Virus record (IMG/VR): IMGVR_UViG_3300042400_000399
Span: 1 to 20,103 of that record
DNA from: a virus
Direction: 5' to 3' (one strand)
Length of the DNA stretch: 20,103 nucleotides
Shown here: positions 4,410-16,943 of the stretch, one piece after another
Position numbering within the stretch: the first letter of the stretch is position 1
How the letters are laid out: each line of letters begins with the position of its first letter
Position numbers and translations under genes: made by a program
Notes under the pieces: generated by a model
The model's database searches: none
The model's input: the letters and a program-made list of their open reading frames with translations, nothing else
What the model was told of the DNA's origin: nothing

Positions 4410-5719
4410 TGAATGTCGATTTACAAGCCAACCCAAAGCAGTATGATTTTTATATTCAAGCGATGGCAGCGGCACAAGGAGCGACAGAGAAGCGCAACTT
4501 ACTTTATGGGGGCGCAATTCGTGGTGGCAAGTCTTTCATCTGCGCCACGATCTGTTTGCGTTTGGCCTCAATGTATCCAAATAGCAAGTGGCATGTTATC
4601 CGTTCCGACTTCCCAAAGTTAGTTAAGACAATCATACCCACCTTTGAAAAGATTATTGATGGCTCAACACACTTTAGGTGGTCACGCGATAAGTCAAATT
4701 ACTTCTTAGAAAATACTAAGACCAAATCAAAGATATTTTTTATGGCTGAAAACATAAGCCATGACCCCGAACTTAACGCGTTTTTAGGACTCGAAACAAA
4801 CGGTATATACTTTGAGCAAATTGAGGAACTAAGTAAGAAACTTTGGAATATTGGCAGCTCACGCGTTGGAAGTTGGTACATTGATAAGATGCCAACACCT
4901 TTGATATTAGCAACGTTCAACCCAACGCAAACGTGGATTAAAGATGAGATACACATACCGTACTTAAAAGGCGAATTAGGTCCAGAGTTTTACTATCAGT
5001 TAGCCTTGCCCGATGACAACGCTTTCGTAACCGAGGAGCAACGTAAAGTGTGGTCACGTATGGATGAGCGTTATAAGAGGCAGTTTATCGGTGGCGATTG
5101 GACTAACTTTGACATGGATGGCAACCGTTGGGCTTATGCTTACGATTCGACTAAACACTTAAAGCCCGTTGAACTTAATAAACAACTGCCCATCATACTT
5201 TCGTTTGATTTTAACCGCAATCCGATATGTTGCTCAGTGCTTCAAGTTATGCCGCCATCAACGATAAGAGTTAAGGAAACGATTAAGTTAGCCAACAGCG
5301 ACATCTATCAACTTTGCGATGTGATTAAGTCTAAGTATGGCAATGCACTTTACCAAGTAACTGGCGATGCAAGTGGCAAGTCATCGAGTGCATTGGTGCA
5401 GGATAACCTCAACTATTACGTTGTTATTCGACAGAAGTTTAACCTCAGCAACAATCAAATGTTGGTGCCAAGTGTTAACCCATCGTTAGAAGACAACCGA
5501 ATGTTAGTCAACTCACTTCTTGCGCGTGGCAATGTCGAACTTGACCCTCAATTTACTAAGGGCTTGCAATTCGATTTAGAAAACGTGGCAGTGTTGCCCG
5601 ATGGGACAATAAAGAAAACAGACCGTAACGATCCGACTCAACAAGCAGATGCATTAGACACATTTCGATATGCATGTAACACTTATTTAAAAAATTTCAT
5701 ATATTTGTCAAATGTTTAG
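4409..5719 (+). CDS. terL: Terminase large subunit (TerL)
   Basis: A 436-aa DNA-packaging motor with both expected domains. In the ATPase domain, Walker A is G-A-I-R-G-G-K-S (35-42) and Walker B is G-I-Y-F-E-Q-I-E-E (132-140) with the catalytic Glu pair. N-P-T-Q-T-W (171-176) fits the coupling motif. The RNase H-like nuclease domain shows metal-binding acids at D267 (L-S-F-D-F-N), D320 (V-T-G-D-A-S-G) and D414/D417 (A-D-A-L-D-T-F-R-Y). The length and layout fit the Terminase_3/PBSX-like group. The protein docks on the portal and cuts concatemers. Here the portal gene is about 9.5 kb downstream rather than adjacent, which is unusual. Confidence 0.92.
   Translation: MNVDLQANPKQYDFYIQAMAAAQGATEKRNLLYGGAIRGGKSFICATICLRLASMYPNSKWHVIRSDFPKLVKTIIPTFEKIIDGSTHFRWSRDKSNYFLENTKTKSKIFFMAENISHDPELNAFLGLETNGIYFEQIEELSKKLWNIGSSRVGSWYIDKMPTPLILATFNPTQTWIKDEIHIPYLKGELGPEFYYQLALPDDNAFVTEEQRKVWSRMDERYKRQFIGGDWTNFDMDGNRWAYAYDSTKHLKPVELNKQLPIILSFDFNRNPICCSVLQVMPPSTIRVKETIKLANSDIYQLCDVIKSKYGNALYQVTGDASGKSSSALVQDNLNYYVVIRQKFNLSNNQMLVPSVNPSLEDNRMLVNSLLARGNVELDPQFTKGLQFDLENVAVLPDGTIKKTDRNDPTQQADALDTFRYACNTYLKNFIYLSNV
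5700..5707 (+). promoter_or_regulatory. Bacteroidota -7-like box TATATTTG, candidate leaderless promoter
   Basis: TATATTTG matches TAnnTTTG and ends four bases before the ATG at 5712, the same geometry as the box at 4038. It lies within the last codons of the large terminase gene, and no clear -33 TTG is visible. If real, it would transcribe the glycosyltransferase and methyltransferase genes separately from the packaging genes. Confidence 0.3.
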
Positions 5720-6320
5720 CGTAATTATACCTACAATGTGGAGAAGTCCACGCATTATAAAGCTTGTTGAAGACCTATGCGCATGCGAATTTGTCGGTGA
5801 GATAATTATTATTGACAACGATACAACTGAATATAGACCGTTGCCGCTTAGTGCTAAGTATGACATACACTTAATGGCTGAAAATATTTACGTAAACCCC
5901 GCGTGGAATTACGGTGTTGAGCGCGCTAAGTATGATAACATATTGATATGCAACGATGACATTAACTTTAATCCTGCATTCTTATCGATATTCGATGATT
6001 CATTGCAGCACGTTGGTGTTATCGGTATGGCATTTGAAAACTATCAACTAAAAAAGGATGCTAACATACATTTAAAAGTAATGAAGCAACGCCCATACGG
6101 TTGGGGGTGTATGATGTTGATGCATAAATCAAAGTACGTTGCTATACCGGAAGACTTATTGATTGCAAATGGCGATGACTGGTTAGCACAAAATTCAACG
6201 CCTTATGAGTTGCATGGCTTATCGATTCAATCCGAGATTAGCACAACAACCCAACTGCCTGAATTCGGAATGATTCAGTTGAATGATAACGAAATTTATA
6301 AAACAAAGTATGCAAAGTAA
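5712..6320 (+). CDS. GT2-like (GT-A fold) glycosyltransferase
   Basis: A 202-aa protein. The N-terminus F-S-V-I-I-P-T-M (2-9) is the first Rossmann-like strand of GT-A enzymes. E-I-I-I-I-D-N-D (30-37) is the nucleotide-binding strand, and N-P-A-W-N-Y-G-V (62-69) matches the conserved N-x-A-x-N-x-G segment of family 2. N-D-D (81-83), on a hydrophobic strand, is the DxD-equivalent for metal and sugar-nucleotide binding. G-W-G-C-M-M-L-M is the acceptor-side strand. It should move a sugar from an activated donor to an unknown acceptor. The protein is shorter than many GT2 enzymes, but the core is complete. It overlaps the end of terL by 8 bp and begins a three-gene glycan-type cassette. Confidence 0.72.
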   Translation: MFSVIIPTMWRSPRIIKLVEDLCACEFVGEIIIIDNDTTEYRPLPLSAKYDIHLMAENIYVNPAWNYGVERAKYDNILICNDDINFNPAFLSIFDDSLQHVGVIGMAFENYQLKKDANIHLKVMKQRPYGWGCMMLMHKSKYVAIPEDLLIANGDDWLAQNSTPYELHGLSIQSEISTTTQLPEFGMIQLNDNEIYKTKYAK

Positions 6321-6867
6321 CGTAAATAAGTGGGACAATTGGTATAAAGACTTAGGAACAACACCGAGTGCATATAAGTATTCCGAAACGGAAACATACA
6401 AGATAGCTGCCGATTTTTTAAGAGGCTTAGATGTGGTTGAAGATTGGGGAGTAGGAGCTGGTGGTTTTTTAAATCATTTACCAAATGCAATTGGTGTTGA
6501 TGGCAGCGATACTCCGTTTGCAGATAAGAAATTTATTGATTTATGTAATTATACGACATTGGCAAACGGAATACATCTAAGGCATGTATTAGAACATAAT
6601 TATAATTGGCAAAAAATATTTATCAACGCTTTATCCTCAGCAGTTAACAAGGTGGTAGTAACTTTGTTTATTCCATTAAGTGATAGTGAAACAAAAGAGT
6701 TGGCTCATAATTTAAAACATGGAGTTGATGTGCCTGATTTATCAATTTCAAAAAAAGAATTTAACGAAATATTAGAATCATTCTCGCCTAAACTTGTTGA
6801 AGTTCAAACGCTAAAAACACCAACTGGTTATGGGGTTGAAATTATTTACAAAATAACAAAGAAATGA
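6310..6867 (+). CDS. SAM-dependent methyltransferase (class I)
   Basis: The ATG at 6310 is preferred over the one at 6283 because it gives a shorter overlap with the upstream gene (11 bp) and a natural N-terminus (M-Q-S-N-V-N-K-W-D-N-W-Y), for a 185-aa protein. V-E-D-W-G-V-G-A-G-G (43-52) is a variant of the glycine-rich motif I of SAM-binding Rossmann folds. I-G-V-D-G-S (61-66) is motif II with the acid that binds the ribose, and H-L-R-H-V-L-E-H-N (89-97) resembles the post-motif segment of FkbM/Methyltransf_11-like enzymes. Flanking glycosyltransferases suggest a sugar or small-molecule acceptor rather than DNA, since no DNA-methylase motif (DPPY, PCQ) is visible. The substrate is unknown. 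The gene is more A/T-rich than terL. Confidence 0.65.
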   Translation: MQSNVNKWDNWYKDLGTTPSAYKYSETETYKIAADFLRGLDVVEDWGVGAGGFLNHLPNAIGVDGSDTPFADKKFIDLCNYTTLANGIHLRHVLEHNYNWQKIFINALSSAVNKVVVTLFIPLSDSETKELAHNLKHGVDVPDLSISKKEFNEILESFSPKLVEVQTLKTPTGYGVEIIYKITKK

Positions 6868-7517
6868 AAATAAGACTTGTATCATGCAACTTTGGAGATA
6901 ATCAAAGTCTTATTATTAACAATCAAGAAGATATTGACAGTTTAAGTGTTGATATTAAAATATACAATGACTCAAACACACCATCAAGGTTATTGAGCAT
7001 GCATCCAAGGTTAAAGGGTAAAATACCTAAAATGTTAGAATGGATTTCGGCACCTGGTTATGATTATTACATTTGGGTTGACTCAAAGTTTACTTTAAAT
7101 AACGGTATAATTCAAACCCTTATTAATCAATTAGGCGATGCTGAGATAGGTTTGTTTAATCATTCACATAGAGATAGCATACAAACTGAATTAGAGTTTG
7201 TAAACACTTTAATTAAAGAGGGTAACCATTATTTAAATAGCAGATACGTTGGCGAACACATGGATAAACAAGTGGAGGATTATTTAAGCGATAATACATT
7301 TGTAGATGATAAGTTATTTGCTGCGGGTTGTTTTATTTATTCAAGCAAGTTGGTTAAAAATACTGAATATAATTTATTAAAAGAATGGTTTTTTCACAAT
7401 AACATTTATTCAGTTCAAGACCAATTAAGTTTACCATATTTATTACATAAGTTTAAAACAAAATATATTACCTTTGACTTTGATTTATTGAATACAGAAT
7501 TAATGAATTATAATTAA
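6864..7517 (+). CDS. DUF616 (TOD1/MUCI70)-like glycosyltransferase
   Basis: A 217-aa protein. R-L-L-S-M-H-P-R-L-K-G-K-I-P (42-55) followed by Y-D-Y-Y-I-W-V-D-S-K (66-75) is the pattern of DUF616/TOD1-type putative glycosyltransferases: a run of basic residues before a hydrophobic strand ending in W-V-D-S-K, where the Asp would be the metal or donor ligand. G-L-F-N-H-S-H-R (about 95-102) and a later Q-D-Q-L-S-L-P-Y (about 191-198) match the acceptor and catalytic acid region of related GT-A enzymes. Its ATG overlaps the methyltransferase stop (ATGA at 6864-6867), so the two are probably made together. Donor and acceptor are unknown. Coding A/T content is high, as in the methyltransferase, which fits recent acquisition. 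Confidence 0.6.
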   Translation: MKIRLVSCNFGDNQSLIINNQEDIDSLSVDIKIYNDSNTPSRLLSMHPRLKGKIPKMLEWISAPGYDYYIWVDSKFTLNNGIIQTLINQLGDAEIGLFNHSHRDSIQTELEFVNTLIKEGNHYLNSRYVGEHMDKQVEDYLSDNTFVDDKLFAAGCFIYSSKLVKNTEYNLLKEWFFHNNIYSVQDQLSLPYLLHKFKTKYITFDFDLLNTELMNYN

Positions 7518-7521
7518 AACC

Positions 7522-7881
7522 ATGCCAATACTTAACTGCCTAACAAGCTACACCCAAGACATTAGCGGATGCGCTGAAACATTAGAATTTAGTTCACCGA
7601 CATTTACAAACGATACTAACTACGTTATTAAGTTTACCTATTCTAACGGATGGGTGCTTAAAAAAGATGTAACAAGCGGACTATACGATGCAGTCATTGA
7701 AATGAACAACAACGGATTTTGGAACATCGGCACTGGCATCGTAAAGGTTGAAATTCTAAATGGCTGCGATGTCACAAATTTTGACATTTGCGGCACCGTT
7801 TATTCATCGATTACACTTAACTTCATAAACATAACTGAAGATGATACTATTGCCATTATCCCTTGTCCTTGTCCTGAATAG
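7522..7881 (+). CDS. Hypothetical small beta-rich protein, probably structural
   Basis: A 119-aa protein with no family I can name. It is predicted to be mostly beta strands, rich in Thr, Asn and Ile, with Cys at six places (residues 6, 17, 80, 90, 115, 117); the last two form C-P-C-P near the C-terminus. Strand-rich Cys-containing proteins of this style recur in the tail region downstream (genes at 11291 and 13456), so a virion or tail role is likely. It lies between the glycan cassette and the tail assembly genes. The position would also suit a small tail-tube or neck protein, but the motif evidence does not support a specific role. Confidence 0.6.
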   Translation: MPILNCLTSYTQDISGCAETLEFSSPTFTNDTNYVIKFTYSNGWVLKKDVTSGLYDAVIEMNNNGFWNIGTGIVKVEILNGCDVTNFDICGTVYSSITLNFINITEDDTIAIIPCPCPE

Positions 7882-8131
7882 CCTCGGTTGTTTAGGTGTT
7901 CATTGCCTAACGCGTGAGGGTATGTTATTCGAGCAAGCAGCAAACTATATTCGACATTACGTTGGTCACTATTGGAGCAAACCATTGTTTGATTGCCCGC
8001 CTTGTATGGCATCGGTTTGGGGTTTAATGGGTTGGTTATATTTTGTAACCGACTTGCACTTGTTACCTTACTTACTTATCCTATGTGGCCTTAACGCTTT
8101 GATATCTAAAATGTATTACCATGGAGATTGA
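7841..8131 (+). CDS. Small membrane protein with CPPC motif (DUF1360-like?)
   Basis: A 96-aa protein. The ATG at 7841 overlaps the previous gene by 41 bp but supplies a hydrophobic N-terminal segment (residues 2-22), either a signal anchor or the first membrane helix. F-D-C-P-P-C-M-A-S-V-W-G (50-61) leads into two further hydrophobic stretches (57-71 and 75-89). A CxxC just before a membrane helix with a following Trp resembles the DUF1360 family, and similar small proteins occur in Bacteroidota phages. An alternative start is the ATG at 7922, which would remove the first hydrophobic segment. A holin-like role is conceivable from size and topology, but the CPPC motif is not typical of holins. 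Confidence 0.6.
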   Translation: MILLPLSLVLVLNSLGCLGVHCLTREGMLFEQAANYIRHYVGHYWSKPLFDCPPCMASVWGLMGWLYFVTDLHLLPYLLILCGLNALISKMYYHGD

Positions 8132-8321
8132 AGATGCACATAAGTTTCTGCTATCACTTGGCTACACTTACACCGGTCAAACGTGCGGATGTGGAGGCAG
8201 TGCAAAGAAGCGCACGTATAATAAAGTAGACAATAAAGTAATAATTAACTTAAGAACTAAACACTATACCCATAACAATGAACTTCCGAAACCTATTCAA
8301 GAACTTACCACCAACTTATAA
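8121..8321 (+). CDS. Small basic protein with CGCGG motif
   Basis: A 66-aa protein overlapping its neighbours on both sides (11 bp with the membrane protein, 44 bp with the chaperone gene). The N-terminal M-E-I-E-D-A-H-K-F-L-L-S-L-G-Y is probably a short helix. C-G-C-G-G-S-A-K-K-R (22-31) follows and could bind a metal or make a turn, then a basic strand K-V-D-N-K-V-I-I-N-L-R (35-45). No family recognised. An 18-aa microprotein at 18206 also carries a CxxCGG stretch, so Cys-Gly knots recur in this genome. The long overlaps make the annotation less certain than for its neighbours. Confidence 0.5.
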   Translation: MEIEDAHKFLLSLGYTYTGQTCGCGGSAKKRTYNKVDNKVIINLRTKHYTHNNELPKPIQELTTNL

Positions 8322-8868
8322 ATCTGAATTCCCACTTGAATTCGCGTTCAAGTGTGGAGGCGTTGACTACTTTGAGTTTGTCGATAAAAACAACCTACCA
8401 TACGAACGTGGGTTGGAAGCGTTAACATTCTACCAAGAAATGCAGAACGGTGTCACAAACGATTACATAAAGAATTATAACGCGGCAATGAGCAAGTTGT
8501 TAAGTGATCCAAAGAAAATCAACCTCAACGAAATCATTAAACTGCAAATGCGATTCGAGGAGCGTTGTAACTTCATTATAAGCAAGGATATAATCTATAA
8601 GGTTGCTTCGGTTGCGTTTGTAGATAAGAGTGAGCCATTGACACGTTATGACTTTAAGGCCAACGAAAAAAAGATTAAGAACTGGAAAGAGAATGCAGGC
8701 GATAGTTTTTTTTTGTCAATGCCAATAAAGAAATTAGTTCCGTTTTTAGCGAAGTCAGGCGACACTTCCCTGACGTATTTGGCGATAGTGGAAAAAGTCG
8801 AGCAGATTCAACGGGATATAGTTTCGTTACAGACATTAGGGATGGAATTGCAAGCCGAGAAAGATTAA
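8278..8868 (+). CDS. Tail assembly chaperone, frame-0 product (196 aa)
   Basis: A mostly helical 196-aa protein directly upstream of the tape measure, where tail assembly chaperones normally sit. It has no catalytic motif. The region at residues 170-192 (V-E-K-V-E-Q-I-Q-R-D-I and onward) is predicted amphipathic. Codons 143-146 read through a run of nine T (8706-8714), a slippery sequence that allows a fraction of ribosomes to shift to the -1 frame, as in the G/GT pair of lambda-like phages. This frame-0 product would be the abundant short form. Its start at 8278 overlaps the previous gene by 44 bp. Assignment rests on position, the slippery run and the intact -1 extension, not on sequence similarity. 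Confidence 0.7.
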   Translation: MNFRNLFKNLPPTYKSEFPLEFAFKCGGVDYFEFVDKNNLPYERGLEALTFYQEMQNGVTNDYIKNYNAAMSKLLSDPKKINLNEIIKLQMRFEERCNFIISKDIIYKVASVAFVDKSEPLTRYDFKANEKKIKNWKENAGDSFFLSMPIKKLVPFLAKSGDTSLTYLAIVEKVEQIQRDIVSLQTLGMELQAEKD

Positions 8869-8987
8869 AGATTACCGTATTAAAATATTTACCCGCGAAT
8901 TATCAAATTAATTTACTAAATTTGTGGGATTTCTTTTTCTTTGCTAATGAGGCAAAGAAGCCACAACCAAAAACGCCTAAAAAGTAA
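8278..8987 (+). CDS. Tail assembly chaperone, long -1 frameshift product (about 236 aa)
   Basis: The -1 frame has a TAG at 8703-8705, becomes open exactly at the T-run and continues to TAA at 8985-8987. It has no ATG or GTG, and its only TTG is near its 3' end, so it is reachable only by a shift. If slippage is on T-TTT-TTT at 8706-8712, the fused protein keeps 145 frame-0 codons and gains 91, about 236 residues. The extension looks like real protein: it has S-S-V-F-S-E-V-R-R-H-F-P-D-V-F-G near its start and N-L-L-N-L-W-D-F-F-F-F-A-N near its end, then a Lys/Pro-rich tail. About 50 codons overlap the frame-0 reading, so both frames are constrained. In known systems the long form binds the tape measure. 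Confidence 0.7.
8706..8714 (+). promoter_or_regulatory. Slippery T9 run for programmed -1 ribosomal frameshift
   Basis: Nine consecutive T lie where the -1 frame first becomes open (its TAG is at 8703-8705). They satisfy the X-XXY-YYZ rule with all-U codons (T-TTT-TTT). I did not find a clear downstream pseudoknot by eye. Homopolymer runs can slip by themselves, also at transcription, and slippage in either process would give the fused protein. Confidence 0.65.
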
Positions 8988-8993
8988 TGGCAG

Positions 8994-11294
8994 TTGGAAA
9001 ACGTAATAATTAAATTCGTTGCAGACACTTCAGGACTTGAGCCTGCTATAAAGCAACTTGAGTTACTTGGTAAGATAAGCAAAGATGATGCGGCCGCGTT
9101 TGCTCAAGTAAACAATGAGCAAAAGGAATTCATTCAAAACTTAAATAAATCCACAACTGAAATGGGCAAGTTGTCCAGTGAAGTCGATGGGCTTATGGCT
9201 GAGATTCAAGCGGGTGTGATGGAAGGATTTGCTGACCATTTAGCTGAGGTCACCAAAGAAACCAAGCAAGCGGGTGGCGGCTTCAAGTCAATGAAGCAGG
9301 AGTTGAAAGAATTAAAGGCCCAGATTAGTAGTGGGTCATTAGGCGAAAAGGAATTAAGAGAAGCCACAAAACGCGCGGCAGAGTTAACCGATACGATTGG
9401 CGATGTTAACGATAAGGTTAAGGCATTAGCAAGCGACACAAAGCGAATTGATGCGGTTGTGACTGCGTTTAGAGGAATAGCGGCAGCGGCTTCGGTTGCT
9501 GCGGGTGCTGCATCATTGTTTGGAGGAGAGAACGAGAAGTTAACTAAAACATTAGCGCAAGCTCAAGGTGCGATGGCATTGTTGCAAGGTGTACAAGAAT
9601 TAGCAAACATAGCCACAACTGAGGGTGCATTGAGAACAATGGTGTTGGATGGGGCGCAAAAGGCGGTGACTGTTAGTGCAAGAGTAATGGGTACAAGCAT
9701 AGCGACTGCATCTGCGGTTGCAACTGCTGGATTAACTTTATTGATTGCGGGTATAGCTTATTTGGTTACCGAAATGATATTTGCAGAAGATGAAACCGCA
9801 AAGTTAGAAAAAAAACTTGCTACACTTGGCGCTAACAATGAATTGATTGAAAAGAATAATAAAATACGTGCTGAATTAATTAAAGATGCACGTGAGCGTG
9901 AATTGGCATTGTTAAGGCAATCATACGAAAAGGAAAAATCCGATTTGATGAAAAGCCAAGCCGATGGAGCAGTTATTGAAGAAAACACTATTTTATTGTT
10001 TAAGAAATTTAAACAAGAAGAGGCTGATATAAATGATAAGTACAATAAACAAAAAGCCGATGCAGATAAAGCAGCCCGCCAAAAGGCAGCACAAGATAAA
10101 AAGATTGCTGATAATAAAGCATTGCAAGATTTAAAGGCAGCTAACGATAAATCACTACAAGATAGATTGCGACAAATACGTGAAGAAATGGCGGCTAATC
10201 AATTAGCAATCGAGTCTTCCACATCAATTACAGAACAAGCGGCTTACTTTGAAAAATTAACTAAATTAAAGAAAGAACAATTTTTTTTAACTCAAGATTT
10301 TACTGATAGCGAATTAATTTTAAAGTACGAACAATTTGACAAAGAATATACTGCATTTGTTAGGATGTTGGTGGATAAAAAATACGCCCAAGATGACTAT
10401 TACGATGCCGATTTAGAAGCGTGGGCAGCAGCCGCACAAAAAAAACAAGATGATGAAAAAGCGGCAGCAGCAAAAACAGCAGCCGAAGACAAAATAAGGA
10501 GAGAACAAGCAATAAAGGAATACACTCAATTTGCCATTGAACAAGCGCAAGTTATTTCCGACACTATCTTTACTATCAACCAACAAAATAGAGATGCCGA
10601 AACTGCATCGATATTAGAGTCACTTAGCATGCGTAAAGATGCCGAGTTAGCAAATAAGAATTTAACCGATGCACAACGCTTGCAGATTGAAGCGCGCTAT
10701 CAACAACAAGAGGCACAAATAAAACAACGCGCGTGGGAGGCACAGAAGCAAGCCGATTTAGCACAAGCAATTATTAACACTGCTTTAGCAGTTACTAAGG
10801 CATTTGCAACAGTTCCACCGCCTGCTAACATATTCGCTGCGGCTGCCGCTGGGGTTGCAGGAGCGGCACAAATAGCCATCATTAGTTCTACACAACCGCC
10901 AAAGTTTGCCGATGGTGGTATGGTAGGCGGTCAATTGCATTCAAGTGGAGGCACATTGATTGAGGCTGAGCGAGGCGAATACGTAATCAATAGACAATCA
11001 ACCTCAGATTATTTGCCATCGTTAAAGGTGCTTAATAGTGGCGAGGTTGAGCCAACATTTGCAAACAATATCTTAACTGCATTAGCCAACGGAACATTCG
11101 ACCTTGCCGCACAATTTCAAACCAAACAGAGTGCAAGTAGTGATGGCATAAACTACGATAAGTTAGATCGCATTATGGCAAAGCACAAATCGAATCTTAA
11201 TGTCAATATTGATGAGCAAGGATTAACAACATTTTTGCTTAAAGAAAATAGCCGCGTTGAATTTAGAAACAAAAAAATGAGATACAGAGCATGA
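8994..11294 (+). CDS. Tail tape measure protein
   Basis: A 766-aa protein. It begins (TTG start) with E-N-V-I-I-K-F-V-A-D-T-S-G-L, the usual opening of tape measures. Residues 1-150 are helical and coiled-coil. Hydrophobic stretches at about 161-176 and 234-263 match the membrane-active segments of tape measures. Long Lys/Glu/Ala coiled coil follows (about 265-610). The C-terminal F-A-D-G-G-M-V-G-G (637-645) and the G-G-T-L-I-E-A-E-R-G-E-Y-V-I-N segment after it are typical of Bacteroidota phage tape measures. It sets tail length and helps DNA ejection; at roughly 0.15 nm per residue it would specify a tail near 115 nm (inference). There is no in-frame ATG near the start: a TAATG at 8985-8989 opens only an 8-codon frame. 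No sheath gene is seen, so a siphovirus-like tail is likely. Confidence 0.88.
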   Translation: MENVIIKFVADTSGLEPAIKQLELLGKISKDDAAAFAQVNNEQKEFIQNLNKSTTEMGKLSSEVDGLMAEIQAGVMEGFADHLAEVTKETKQAGGGFKSMKQELKELKAQISSGSLGEKELREATKRAAELTDTIGDVNDKVKALASDTKRIDAVVTAFRGIAAAASVAAGAASLFGGENEKLTKTLAQAQGAMALLQGVQELANIATTEGALRTMVLDGAQKAVTVSARVMGTSIATASAVATAGLTLLIAGIAYLVTEMIFAEDETAKLEKKLATLGANNELIEKNNKIRAELIKDARERELALLRQSYEKEKSDLMKSQADGAVIEENTILLFKKFKQEEADINDKYNKQKADADKAARQKAAQDKKIADNKALQDLKAANDKSLQDRLRQIREEMAANQLAIESSTSITEQAAYFEKLTKLKKEQFFLTQDFTDSELILKYEQFDKEYTAFVRMLVDKKYAQDDYYDADLEAWAAAAQKKQDDEKAAAAKTAAEDKIRREQAIKEYTQFAIEQAQVISDTIFTINQQNRDAETASILESLSMRKDAELANKNLTDAQRLQIEARYQQQEAQIKQRAWEAQKQADLAQAIINTALAVTKAFATVPPPANIFAAAAAGVAGAAQIAIISSTQPPKFADGGMVGGQLHSSGGTLIEAERGEYVINRQSTSDYLPSLKVLNSGEVEPTFANNILTALANGTFDLAAQFQTKQSASSDGINYDKLDRIMAKHKSNLNVNIDEQGLTTFLLKENSRVEFRNKKMRYRA

Positions 11295-13456: not shown

Positions 13457-14340
13457 TGGCAGCGATATTAAACATACCAAATAGTTTTGTAACCTTTTAT
13501 AACTTGGCGAATGACTTAGGCATACCCGAGTATGTAACTGATACCGAATGCGGAATTCAAAAAGACTTTTGCTTACCTATTTATGATGAAAAAGATTTAG
13601 CTTTTCAAGTAAACATTGCATCAAGTGAAGTATTGACTTCTGCCAATATAGATGTTCAATTAATACCCGCATCAGGAACGGGAATAACCTTAACTGGGTA
13701 TAGCATTTCAGTTGTGGCTAATGGCATTTATGGAGGCTCAATACCGATTTATAATATTTATATTAACTTTTTTGGGAGTGATTTAACTAATGGAATAAGT
13801 GAGGGCGATTGTTTTCAAATAGGTATGCTTACGGGTGGCAGTATTGATTTAGCATATTTTGTATCCAACCAATGCTTTAAAAAAGTTAACGATAAATGTT
13901 TAAGCACTAAACTTGAATACATAAACACATCTAACGCTTTTGGGTTTGTTTATAGAGCATTTGGCACGTTTCCAAACATAGCATTGACAATAAATAGAAT
14001 CCGTTTACCATTATACTTTAAAGAGCCAAACATTAGCAGCGACAAAACTGTTTACGTTCGACCTGATGGAAGCCGCCAACTATTATCGGCGCGATTGGCA
14101 AAGCGTTATAAAGGTTATGTAGATGAAGTGCCAGAGGAAGTGCATCAAAACTTAGTAATTGCATTGAATCACGATGGCATTTACTTCACACCCGAAAACT
14201 TTACAACTCAAATACAAGCACGATTTGAGGATGAGTATAACAATAATTATCCCGAAATAATGCAAAACGTAAACATTTGGAGCTCAGATTTTAGTATATT
14301 TGAAACGCCATTTAACAACTTTAATTCAAACTGCGAATGA
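13456..14340 (+). CDS. Hypothetical tail-associated structural protein
   Basis: A 294-aa protein whose ATG overlaps the stop of the large tail protein (TAATG at 13454-13458). It is beta-rich, with N-terminal T-E-C-G-I-Q-K-D-F-C (about 31-40) and further Cys residues, a style shared with the preceding gene. The C-terminal part (about 195-280) is different: V-Y-V-R-P-D-G-S-R-Q-L-L-S-A-R-L-A-K-R-Y, then Y-V-D-E-V-P-E, a charged mixed segment that could contact another tail protein. No family recognised. Position suggests a tail tip or baseplate protein. The 3' end overlaps the GT8-like gene by ATGA. Confidence 0.6.
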   Translation: MAAILNIPNSFVTFYNLANDLGIPEYVTDTECGIQKDFCLPIYDEKDLAFQVNIASSEVLTSANIDVQLIPASGTGITLTGYSISVVANGIYGGSIPIYNIYINFFGSDLTNGISEGDCFQIGMLTGGSIDLAYFVSNQCFKKVNDKCLSTKLEYINTSNAFGFVYRAFGTFPNIALTINRIRLPLYFKEPNISSDKTVYVRPDGSRQLLSARLAKRYKGYVDEVPEEVHQNLVIALNHDGIYFTPENFTTQIQARFEDEYNNNYPEIMQNVNIWSSDFSIFETPFNNFNSNCE

Positions 14341-15206
14341 CAACTGGAATACTTTTAATCGGAATCGGCCATAAAAACTATGGGTGCATGGCTGCAAACC
14401 TTGCTATGTCATTACGTGCAAACGGTTGTGACTTACCTATAACATTAGTAACGCAAGCCGATACTATCACGCGTTTAGATGAAGATTATAAAGCATTGTT
14501 TACAGAGATAAAAGAAATCCCGCCACATTGCTACACACTTGCCGATAACGAAACTTGTTACATCAAAGCAAAGGCGCACATGGATGAGTTAACACCTTAT
14601 GACTATACGTTGTTTATTGATGCCGATGTTATAATGATTAACAACCATAAAATAAATGAGGTAATCGAATCACTAAAAGGAATTGATTTTGCGGTAAAAA
14701 ATAGTGGGTTTAAAAACTATGATAGTGATGAGATTACTGCCGATTCAAAACAATGGGCTAACTTATTAGAAGTAAAAGAAGCGTTTGGATTCACAACTGA
14801 AAAGATTTGGAATGTGCATTCCGAGTTTATATGGTGGAAAAAAGGACATCCATTGTTTGCAAAGTGGGTAGAAAACTTTGAAAACATACGTGTAAAAAAC
14901 ATTGAGTTTGCAGGATGCATACCCGATGAGTTACCGTTATGGATTGCAATGTGCCAGTTAGGTGTTGACTGCCATGAAGAAATGTATCACCCTACTTTTT
15001 GGCCAATGGATTCAACTAAAACAATGCGATTAAAGGATTTAACAGATGACTATTGTGGTGTATCTATTGGAGGTAACAGAATAAGTGAAGTGCAATTAAC
15101 AATCTATAACAACCTTGTGCAAATTCATGCATTAAGAATGAATATGCGATATAAATTTTTACAACAGCCCAAAAGAAGATGGGCTCCAGAACGCCATACT
15201 TACTAA
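14337..15206 (+). CDS. GT8-like glycosyltransferase
   Basis: A 289-aa protein. The N-terminal G-I-L-L-I-G-I-G-H (4-12) is a first GT-A strand. F-I-D-A-D-V (93-98) contains the D-A-D (DxD) metal site of glycosyltransferase family 8-like enzymes. N-V-H-S-E-F-I-W-W-K-K-G (about 158-169) and the following C-I-P-D-E-L-P-L-W fit the conserved acceptor and catalytic segments. It would transfer a sugar from a nucleotide donor to an unknown acceptor. Its position between tail and portal genes, overlapping the upstream gene by 4 bp, makes co-expression with virion proteins likely. It is separate from the cassette at 5712-7517, so the phage has at least three glycosyltransferases here. Confidence 0.72.
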   Translation: MTTGILLIGIGHKNYGCMAANLAMSLRANGCDLPITLVTQADTITRLDEDYKALFTEIKEIPPHCYTLADNETCYIKAKAHMDELTPYDYTLFIDADVIMINNHKINEVIESLKGIDFAVKNSGFKNYDSDEITADSKQWANLLEVKEAFGFTTEKIWNVHSEFIWWKKGHPLFAKWVENFENIRVKNIEFAGCIPDELPLWIAMCQLGVDCHEEMYHPTFWPMDSTKTMRLKDLTDDYCGVSIGGNRISEVQLTIYNNLVQIHALRMNMRYKFLQQPKRRWAPERHTY

Positions 15207-16943
15207 ATGGAAACCGAAAACAAATACATTATTATTGATGCCGATATCGTTGCCGATGTCGCACGTAATCCACATATAGAGGATGAGGAATATGTTAACT
15301 TTCAATACTATTCCGATGGAGAATATCCGCGTAAATTAATTGATGAGGTAAGACCTAACGAGCACATAATTGTCAAGGAGTATCGTAAAAAAACTTATGA
15401 GGCGGTGTTTAGCGAAGTTTACGATCGCGTTTTAAATGCACTAAATAAAATACAACGTGCGGATGGATTCTTTTTAAAGTTTCCAGACACGCAATATCCA
15501 CGAATAGCCAAAGATGAGGACTTAAAAACATACCTTACAAAAAACTTTACCGCTTCCAAATCTTTAATGAATTGGGCGTTTCAAGTTGGGTTAAAACAAT
15601 ATACAATCGATGCTAACGGTGTTATTATTGTTTGGGCAGAACAAGCTGAGCCGACTGAATATAAGAAACCGAAACCTTACGTAATCAATTCAAGTAGCAT
15701 TGTTTATCATTACGAGGGCAATTCGATTGTTTACAAAGATGATGACAATGGCAATGTATATTATTCAATTGATAAAATTAGTTGGTCTAAGTGGCGCAAG
15801 AAAAAGAAAGGTAACGGGTTTGATTTAGTTGAGGAAACATTGCATGGCCTTGGTGTATTCCCTGGCTTTACAATCGGTGGTGTTGTAGAAGAGGAAGAGG
15901 AGTTGGGCCGCGAATATCAAAGCAGATTAAAAGCAATGTTACCATGGTTAAACGTGGCTACGGTTGAGTTTAGTGATTTGCGCGCTGAAATAACGCAACA
16001 CATACATTCAACTGTTTGGATTTACCAAGATGAGCAATGTAAAAGTTGCAACGGTCAAGGGTTTACGTTTACCAAAGAGCAAGAGCGTGTTCCTTGTACT
16101 AATAGCAAGTGTAAAGATGGTCAGATACCGACATCGCCTTACGAAACTATACGTGTAAGACCTGCCAAAACATCGATGGGAGAAGTGCCTGCACCGACTC
16201 CACCGATGGGCTACATACAGAAGCAAACAGAGATTGCAGAGTTGCAGGATAAACGTATTAATGAGATGCGTTATCGTTCTTTGGCTGCCATCAATATGCA
16301 GTTTTTAGAGGCACAACCCGCGGCTCAAAGTGGTGTTGCAAAGGCATACGATAGAGATGAAACTAACAATACATTTTATGGTGTTGCAGTTGATATAGGA
16401 ACTATAATGACTAACATTGCTGAGTTGTGTGCGATGTGGAGATATAAAGAGATATACGATGTTGAAACCATTAAGTCAATGGTGCCAGTTTGCGTTGTTC
16501 CTAATCAGTTTGATATCTTAGGCAGTCAACTTATATTAGAGGAGATTAAAGCGGCTAAGGATAGCGGTCTAAACGATGCGGTGTTAAGTGCGCAAGAATT
16601 AGAATATATCGTTAAACGTTTTCCGAATGACATTGCAATGCAAGATATGTTACGTGATGCATTCAACCTTGACCCCGCAAGTGGTAAAACGCAAGAAGAG
16701 AAAGCGTTGTTAGTAAGCAATAAGATGATGTCTAAAACCGATGCAGTTATAAGCACATACATTCAAGACTTCGTGCAACGTGCATACGCTGAGAATCCTG
16801 AATTTAACCGCTTAGATAAGTCAAAGCAACAAGCGGTATTGAATGCATTTGCAGTTGAGAAATTGAAAGAAATAAACACTAAGGATATATTGTTTAATCA
16901 GATATTTGGTGCTACTATTGTAGATAATGGCGCAAGCGAATAA
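15207..16943 (+). CDS. Portal protein with zinc-ribbon-like insertion
   Basis: A 578-aa protein assigned as portal from length, from the Mu-F-like, scaffold-like and capsid genes that follow, and from the helical stem and clip region after residue 230 (L-G-R-E-Y-Q-S-R-L-K, then L-P-W-L-N-V-A-T). Between about 275 and 310 it contains an unusual Cys cluster: C278-x2-C281-N-G-Q-G, then C297-x4-C302-K-D-G, resembling half of a DnaJ-type zinc finger. Portal rings are 12-mers at the DNA entry vertex and bind TerL and the head-tail connector. I see no portal-specific short motif, so the call is contextual. Its 3' end overlaps the minor head gene by 17 bp. Confidence 0.75.
   Translation: METENKYIIIDADIVADVARNPHIEDEEYVNFQYYSDGEYPRKLIDEVRPNEHIIVKEYRKKTYEAVFSEVYDRVLNALNKIQRADGFFLKFPDTQYPRIAKDEDLKTYLTKNFTASKSLMNWAFQVGLKQYTIDANGVIIVWAEQAEPTEYKKPKPYVINSSSIVYHYEGNSIVYKDDDNGNVYYSIDKISWSKWRKKKKGNGFDLVEETLHGLGVFPGFTIGGVVEEEEELGREYQSRLKAMLPWLNVATVEFSDLRAEITQHIHSTVWIYQDEQCKSCNGQGFTFTKEQERVPCTNSKCKDGQIPTSPYETIRVRPAKTSMGEVPAPTPPMGYIQKQTEIAELQDKRINEMRYRSLAAINMQFLEAQPAAQSGVAKAYDRDETNNTFYGVAVDIGTIMTNIAELCAMWRYKEIYDVETIKSMVPVCVVPNQFDILGSQLILEEIKAAKDSGLNDAVLSAQELEYIVKRFPNDIAMQDMLRDAFNLDPASGKTQEEKALLVSNKMMSKTDAVISTYIQDFVQRAYAENPEFNRLDKSKQQAVLNAFAVEKLKEINTKDILFNQIFGATIVDNGASE

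Follow-up and report, generated by a model that had tools for sequence, protein, structure and literature searches.

The window, that is, the whole stretch of DNA that was analysed, comes from a virus record and comprises 20,103 bases read on one strand. It carries on the plus strand an open reading frame (ORF) running from an ATG at 8278 to a stop ending at 8868, which encodes a protein of 196 amino acids, hereafter the short product (G-like), and is kept in the IMG/VR relatives. The short product is composed of an N-domain (8278–8706, plus strand), predicted to be shared with a second product, and of the tail that follows in the same frame (frame 0). At their junction lies a run of nine Ts (T9; 8706–8714, plus strand), which reads AGT TTT TTT TTG in frame 0 and TTT TTT TTT GTC in the -1 frame. 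The -1 frame is closed by a TAG at 8703–8705, directly 5′ of T9, and from there stays open to a TAA at 8985–8987. The region 8706–8987 (plus strand) could therefore encode an extension of 93 amino acids, which together with the N-domain would form the long product (GT-like); 43 distinct extensions were available, of which 30 were aligned. Both frames are open across 8715–8865 (plus strand), a dual-coded stretch of 151 nt or about 50 codons. The frame-0 stop, a TAA at 8866–8868 (plus strand), falls inside the -1 codons for R-L-K, and the last 40 codons of the extension including its stop (8868–8987, plus strand) are read in the -1 frame alone. An earlier note on this DNA had placed a programmed -1 frameshift here, and its positions for the TAG, T9 and the two stops all agreed with the sequence, as did its estimate of about 50 doubly read codons. 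The -1 frame is indeed open up to the TAA, with a count of 93 codons from the first T and not 91 as had been written. Since ATG and GTG are absent from the -1 frame of the window after T9 and the single TTG (8922–8924) stands near its end, this frame has no ordinary start; this too had been claimed and was borne out when the frame was read.

The tape measure gene (8994–11294, plus strand; phrog_3336, E = 7e-13) begins just past the -1 stop, which lies 6 nt before its start codon, and the frame-0 stop lies about 125 nt before the same start. Upstream of the candidate chaperone gene, the ORF listing contains a gene for a small membrane-like protein (7841–8131, plus strand), the product of which gave no supported family match; by eye, an upstream ORF of the relative L269 (33–338) is similar to it. 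Three more short out-of-frame ORF overlaps were seen 5′ of the candidate chaperone gene at 7841–7881, 8121–8131 and 8278–8321 (41, 11 and 44 nt), and an ORF of 66 amino acids terminates within the start region of this gene. In addition, genes resembling glycosyltransferases or a methyltransferase by eye (5712–7517 and 14337–15206) were noticed amid the head and tail genes.

The scans of IMG/VR returned 74 distinct related contigs, giving 75 records with the window. The identity of the N-domain was 100% at its highest; the lowest values were 28% for L186, compared with the window, and 26% for L269, compared with L102. Exactly nine Ts were found in 71 of the 75 records, each time preceded by 100 or more open codons of frame 0, and the remaining four (L047, L052, L133 and L168) end before the site or start after it. 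The alignment of homologues had been proposed as a check by the earlier note, to which the loss of the open -1 frame or of the T-rich run in relatives would have been contrary; both features were found conserved. In three records (L009, L015 and L019) the T9 is present but the reading frames run off the contigs, so these were left out of the complete set, which was assembled before L269 was found and comprised 52 distinct sequences. The frame-0 tail past T9 is exactly 53 residues long in 51 of these 52 (77 residues in L186, and 50 in the later L269), and the extension measures 92–108 codons across the 52. In the 51 sequences the stop after the 53 residues is TAA in 32 and TGA in 19, and by itself it is weak evidence because the -1 residues L/M-K make a stop likely at that place. 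Around the run, T9 is followed by a G in 50 of the sequences and by an A in the remaining one, the codon on its 5′ side ends AGT (39), GGT (10) or GCT (2), and the first T of the run is a T in all 51 sequences.

The search outside this set gave no further relatives. None was found in the bacterial genome contigs scanned; INPHARED held no relative of the frame-0 protein from the window, L186 or L102, and none of the protein encoded at 15207–16943 (portal-like by eye). The viral scan with the L186 query returned L186 alone, and with the L102 query nothing new. Some features of single relatives were recorded as well. The chaperone N-terminus encoded at L030:4776–5558 is 65 residues longer than those of its close relatives, and the extra stretch looks unrelated and begins after the first eight residues, which would fit an insertion or a chimera. 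A run of eight Ts is present in the -1-only part of the extension in L101 (3654–3661) and L102 (3648–3655), at a place where the window run is interrupted. In the overlap, CCGTTTTT at window positions 8740–8747 is unchanged across the 51 sequences, and together with T9 it makes up the only invariant stretches of at least six bases in the aligned gene; its invariance is explained, at least in part, by coding in two frames.

The most divergent relatives were compared with the family profiles of the frame-0 tail and of the extension. L269, which shares 26% N-domain identity, has the T9, and it scored 41.1 with its frame-0 tail (best of 20 shuffles, 14.2) and 32.4 with its extension (best of 20 shuffles, 19.9). 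Because L269 retains the T9, a fitting tail and a fitting extension, the two alternative C-termini appear to be old. L186 keeps the T9 and the open -1 frame, and its scores were not clearly above those of its shuffles (tail 19.6 against 17.6; extension 18.4 against 18.4); the extension alignment A5 contains L186, so the high score of A5 against L186 is circular and was left unused. In L102 the frame-0 tail is kept in length and has diverged in its second half.

The selection acting on the two frames was estimated from 51 sequences by scoring parsimony changes for their effect in each frame against the kappa-weighted opportunity; L186, with its tail of 77 residues, was left out of the counts, and L269, found later, is also outside them. 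Before T9, the ratio of replacement to silent changes (N/S) was 0.164 in frame 0 and 2.56 in the -1 frame. In the overlap it was 0.516 in frame 0 and 0.725 in the -1 frame, and past the frame-0 stop it was 0.214 in the -1 frame and 1.54 in frame 0. By these counts, purifying selection is on frame 0 before T9, on the -1 frame after the frame-0 stop and on both frames in between. The constraint on the -1 frame thus begins only from T9 onward, which fits the prediction of a shift at T9. The same picture was obtained from codon positions, as the frame-0 third-position changes fall from about eight per codon before T9 (1121/135) to 3.6 in the overlap (181/50), and the changes by -1 codon position in the -1-only region number 57, 34 and 152.

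The changes in the overlap were further divided by their effect in both frames. Those silent in both numbered 30 (opportunity 5.4), those silent in frame 0 and replacing in -1 were 118 (123.5), those replacing in frame 0 and silent in -1 were 93 (129.4), and those replacing in both were 154 (287.8). Per weighted opportunity this amounts to 5.5 for changes silent in both frames, 0.96 for those silent in frame 0 only, 0.72 for those silent in -1 only and 0.54 for those silent in neither. Codon-substitution tests in both frames had been suggested by the earlier note, and here they rejected each of the two one-frame nulls. If frame 0 alone were coding, 4.2% of the frame-0-silent changes would be expected to be also -1-silent, and 30 of 148 were (p = 8e-13). 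If the -1 frame alone were coding, 4.0% of the -1-silent changes would be expected to be also silent in frame 0, and 30 of 123 were (p = 1.4e-15); a second test of this null gave 118 of 272 against 30.0% expected (p = 2.2e-6). The -1-silent share among frame-0 replacements, which is a weaker test, was 93 of 247 against 31.0% (p = 0.015), and within the first 27 overlap codons the same share was not significant (p = 0.17). These p-values assume independent parsimony changes and the absence of recombination and serve as guides. A smaller set of 35 sequences gave overlap N/S values of 0.407 for frame 0 and 0.830 for the -1 frame, in the same direction.

The next question is how the two frames could be joined at T9. 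In frame 0 the context is NNT TTT TTT TTR, where a ribosome could slip by -1 on either T TTT TTT or T TTT TTG; ribosomal slippage on T TTT TTT is our first choice and is regarded as somewhat more probable than not. The second choice, clearly behind it and tentative, is slippage of the RNA polymerase, by which the number of Us in transcripts would change (to ten, for instance) and such transcripts would be translated normally into the long product, with the ratio of products set in the RNA. The run being exactly nine in all 71 records that cover the site speaks for the polymerase, and a passage of PMC1088944 gives nine A or T as the length at which many bacterial genomes, a large share of them, begin to show selection against slippage. 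Nine Ts, however, can also follow from the heptamer T TTT TTT together with the coding needs of both frames. Furthermore, no conserved RNA stimulator was found around T9 in 17 sequences of 151 nt with a pseudoknot-free method (consensus energy −0.73 kcal/mol), and no pair in the RNA consensus of these sequences changed on both sides. The lack of a conserved structure beside T9 would suit polymerase slippage, but it does not exclude the ribosome because, according to a passage of PMC5009743, some tailed phages appear to frameshift with no stimulatory signal. The two modes are not separable from sequence since two-frame coding also holds most of the nine Ts in place. The joint action of both modes was ranked third, behind ribosomal and then polymerase slippage.

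The alternatives to a fusion at T9 fared less well. The -1 ORF could be a separate gene, translated from an internal start or by reinitiation and never fused to the N-domain. In 28 of the 52 distinct sequences a potential start (ATG, GTG or TTG) does occur after the last -1 stop and no later than -1 codon 60, mostly at codons 53–58, near the frame-0 stop, and six (L048, L159–L162 and L165) have a candidate start seven codons 5′ of T9. Such a start is missing in the other 24, including the window, and among the 52 extensions no start codon near T9 is common to all. The similarity and constraint of the -1 frame moreover begin at T9, about 50 codons before the commoner candidate starts, which makes a separate gene very improbable. 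Even less probable is that the overlap has a single real frame, the other being open by chance or through codon bias. Taken alone, the window would leave some room for this: when codons for a fixed frame-0 protein were drawn 20,000 times from the usage of the window, the -1 frame remained open across the overlap in 2.3% of the draws, and for a fixed -1 protein frame 0 remained open in 13%. Both one-frame nulls were nevertheless rejected across the 51 sequences, and even at 26% identity the frame-0 tail of L269 matches the profile of the family tails. Homopolymers are error-prone, yet it is extremely improbable that T9 stems from faulty sequencing or assembly or is phase-variable, as all 71 covering records, from many metagenomes, have all nine Ts and an error would not leave both frames selected on the same DNA. 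A T run of at least nine is by itself unsurprising, because 0.85 such runs are expected per window by a simple Markov estimate; the weight of the case for a slip at T9 comes from the relatives, that is, from the constant T9, the constant tail length and the purifying selection in both frames.

The position of the gene was then considered for its identity. The earlier note had put a chaperone gene directly 5′ of the tape measure, and the family match of the downstream gene upholds this, as does the ORF spacing in the relatives. The next long ORF starts between −4 and +9 nt from the -1 stop in 51 of the 52 distinct sequences, and it matched tape measure families in four of the five relatives scanned, that of L101 being unmatched. 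In L186 and L269 the tape measure gene was recognised by eye, with a start about 110 nt past the -1 stop in L186 and about 400 nt past it in L269. As to the start codon, a GTG one base into the -1 stop was seen in 21 of the 52 distinct sequences and a TTG 6 nt past the -1 stop in 22. Because only readers of the long product reach the tape measure start, the synthesis of tape measure may be coupled to the shift.

The assignment of the gene to the G/GT type, made by the earlier note, was upheld by position and architecture, and chaperone families gave no significant match in sequence or fold. Neither product matched a known family when single proteins were searched in Pfam and PHROGs, and with the members of alignments A4 (31) and A5 (30) nothing better than E = 0.007 was obtained. 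The predicted structure of the short product (mean pLDDT 73; tail 52–73) has a beta hairpin at 20–34, helices, and a long C-terminal helix (161–195) that comes from the frame-0 tail. In the fold search with this model none of the matches was significant, the best being E = 3.3 in PDB, Z = 3.5 in VIA-align and E = 0.032 in BFVD. Four of the best 50 of 97 BFVD rows were named tail assembly chaperone (Zuko, Kitkat twice and K1H; E = 0.27–1.9) and the others among these 50 were mostly uncharacterised or unnamed. The chaperone-named predicted structures are a hint and no more. The extension modelled alone was poor (pLDDT 52), with predicted helices at 2–20, 22–25, 40–61 and 73–84, and the fold search was confined to the short product. 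Cultured phages were also considered as comparators. Nonlabens P12024S came from a weak BFVD row and was dropped, as its protein was taken, from the length of 175 residues, to be the product of the terminase-adjacent gene. Polaribacter P12002L has a tape measure related to that of L186, and it was set aside because no other plus-strand ORF of at least 40 codons lies over the end of its pre-tape-measure gene; P12002S and Cellulophaga phi46:1 were compared by gene tables alone. The identity as a chaperone is thus supported by position and architecture. Together with the selection results, these features make it quite probable that the gene is a lambda G/GT-like tail assembly chaperone with two products that differ in conserved, dual-coded C-termini.

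Few cases of recoding are conserved as widely as the frameshifts in tail chaperone genes. The slip heptamer of lambda is GGGAAAG. The gene of the window resembles lambda G/GT in lying directly before the tape measure gene, in having a -1 shift that would fuse a common N-domain to an extension, and in an extension stop that falls where the tape measure gene begins (T of lambda ends at 10549 and H starts at 10542); the family searches detected no sequence similarity to G/GT. A slip site joining two ORFs, as in G/GT, was found at the sequence level, with T9 in 71 of 75 records and a -1 frame that is open and constrained. In lambda 15 nt separate the heptamer from the G stop, whereas in the window the conserved frame-0 tail continues for 151 nt. 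The genes of the SEA-PHAGES set from actinobacteriophages, used for training PRFect and made up mostly of tail assembly chaperones, are of the same kind and shift on a slippery motif, but their mean distance from the slip to the in-frame stop is 26 nt (a passage of PMC10885494) against the 151 nt found here. Genes of lambda and SEA-PHAGES typically, though not by definition, slip a short distance before the short ORF ends, and the absence of this feature is what chiefly sets the present gene apart. Longer distances do have precedents in recoding generally, as the same passage gives a mean of 169 nt for the Atkins et al. set, whose 110 genes are of diverse kinds and include polyproteins and early-stop shifts; it also states that, in a test set, PRFect made predictions for two of the 43 genomes in which the distance exceeds 51 nt.

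The T9 is also a coding-region run of A or T of about nine or more, the length found in genes with transcriptional slippage, and passages of PMC1088944 and PMC5009743 treat 9A and 9T as slippage-prone. In such genes (IS elements, mxiE and dnaX of Thermus thermophilus) a homopolymer in the coding region likewise opens another frame; here, by difference, polymerase slippage is a candidate from the run length. Among the literature matches listed, which are mostly non-subscription papers and a weak basis for a negative, none reported a tail chaperone whose frames are both coding over a long overlap, or one that uses transcriptional slippage. By design and position the gene would belong to the G/GT kind, and its novelty appears to be the long, conserved, dual-coded tail of the short product.

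The two frames, the invariant T9, the constraint on each frame and the place before the tape measure gene were established by comparing sequences. From these we infer that both products are made, that they act as chaperones, which of them is the major one and that their ratio is controlled. Most readings would stay in frame 0 and give the 196-residue protein, and a fraction would slip by -1 at T9, so that the N-domain is fused to the extension of 93 residues. In lambda, gpG and gpGT, the latter a -1 product made at a low level, have in common an N-domain that binds the tape measure, while tail tube subunits are bound by the T domain (a passage of PMC5009743). By analogy, the N-domain of the present gene would attach to the tape measure, its extension would bring in tail tube subunits, and the rate of slipping would set the ratio of the products. 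The short product would be more than the N-domain, because its tail of 53 residues is extra and conserved. A bolder combination was also considered, in which polymerase slippage sets the chaperone ratio, the short product has in its tail a third module that works, giving the gene two mutually exclusive functional C-termini, and the synthesis of tape measure is coupled to the long product since -1 ribosomes alone stop at the start of the tape measure gene; as a whole this was regarded as doubtful.

The dual coding is the most interesting part of this gene, as the overlap is far longer than is usual for genes of this kind. The invariant T9, with no detected stimulator, makes the gene a place to tell ribosomal from RNA polymerase slippage. 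Furthermore, it would provide a natural case in which the two alternative C-termini of one putative chaperone can be separated by changes that are silent in one frame.
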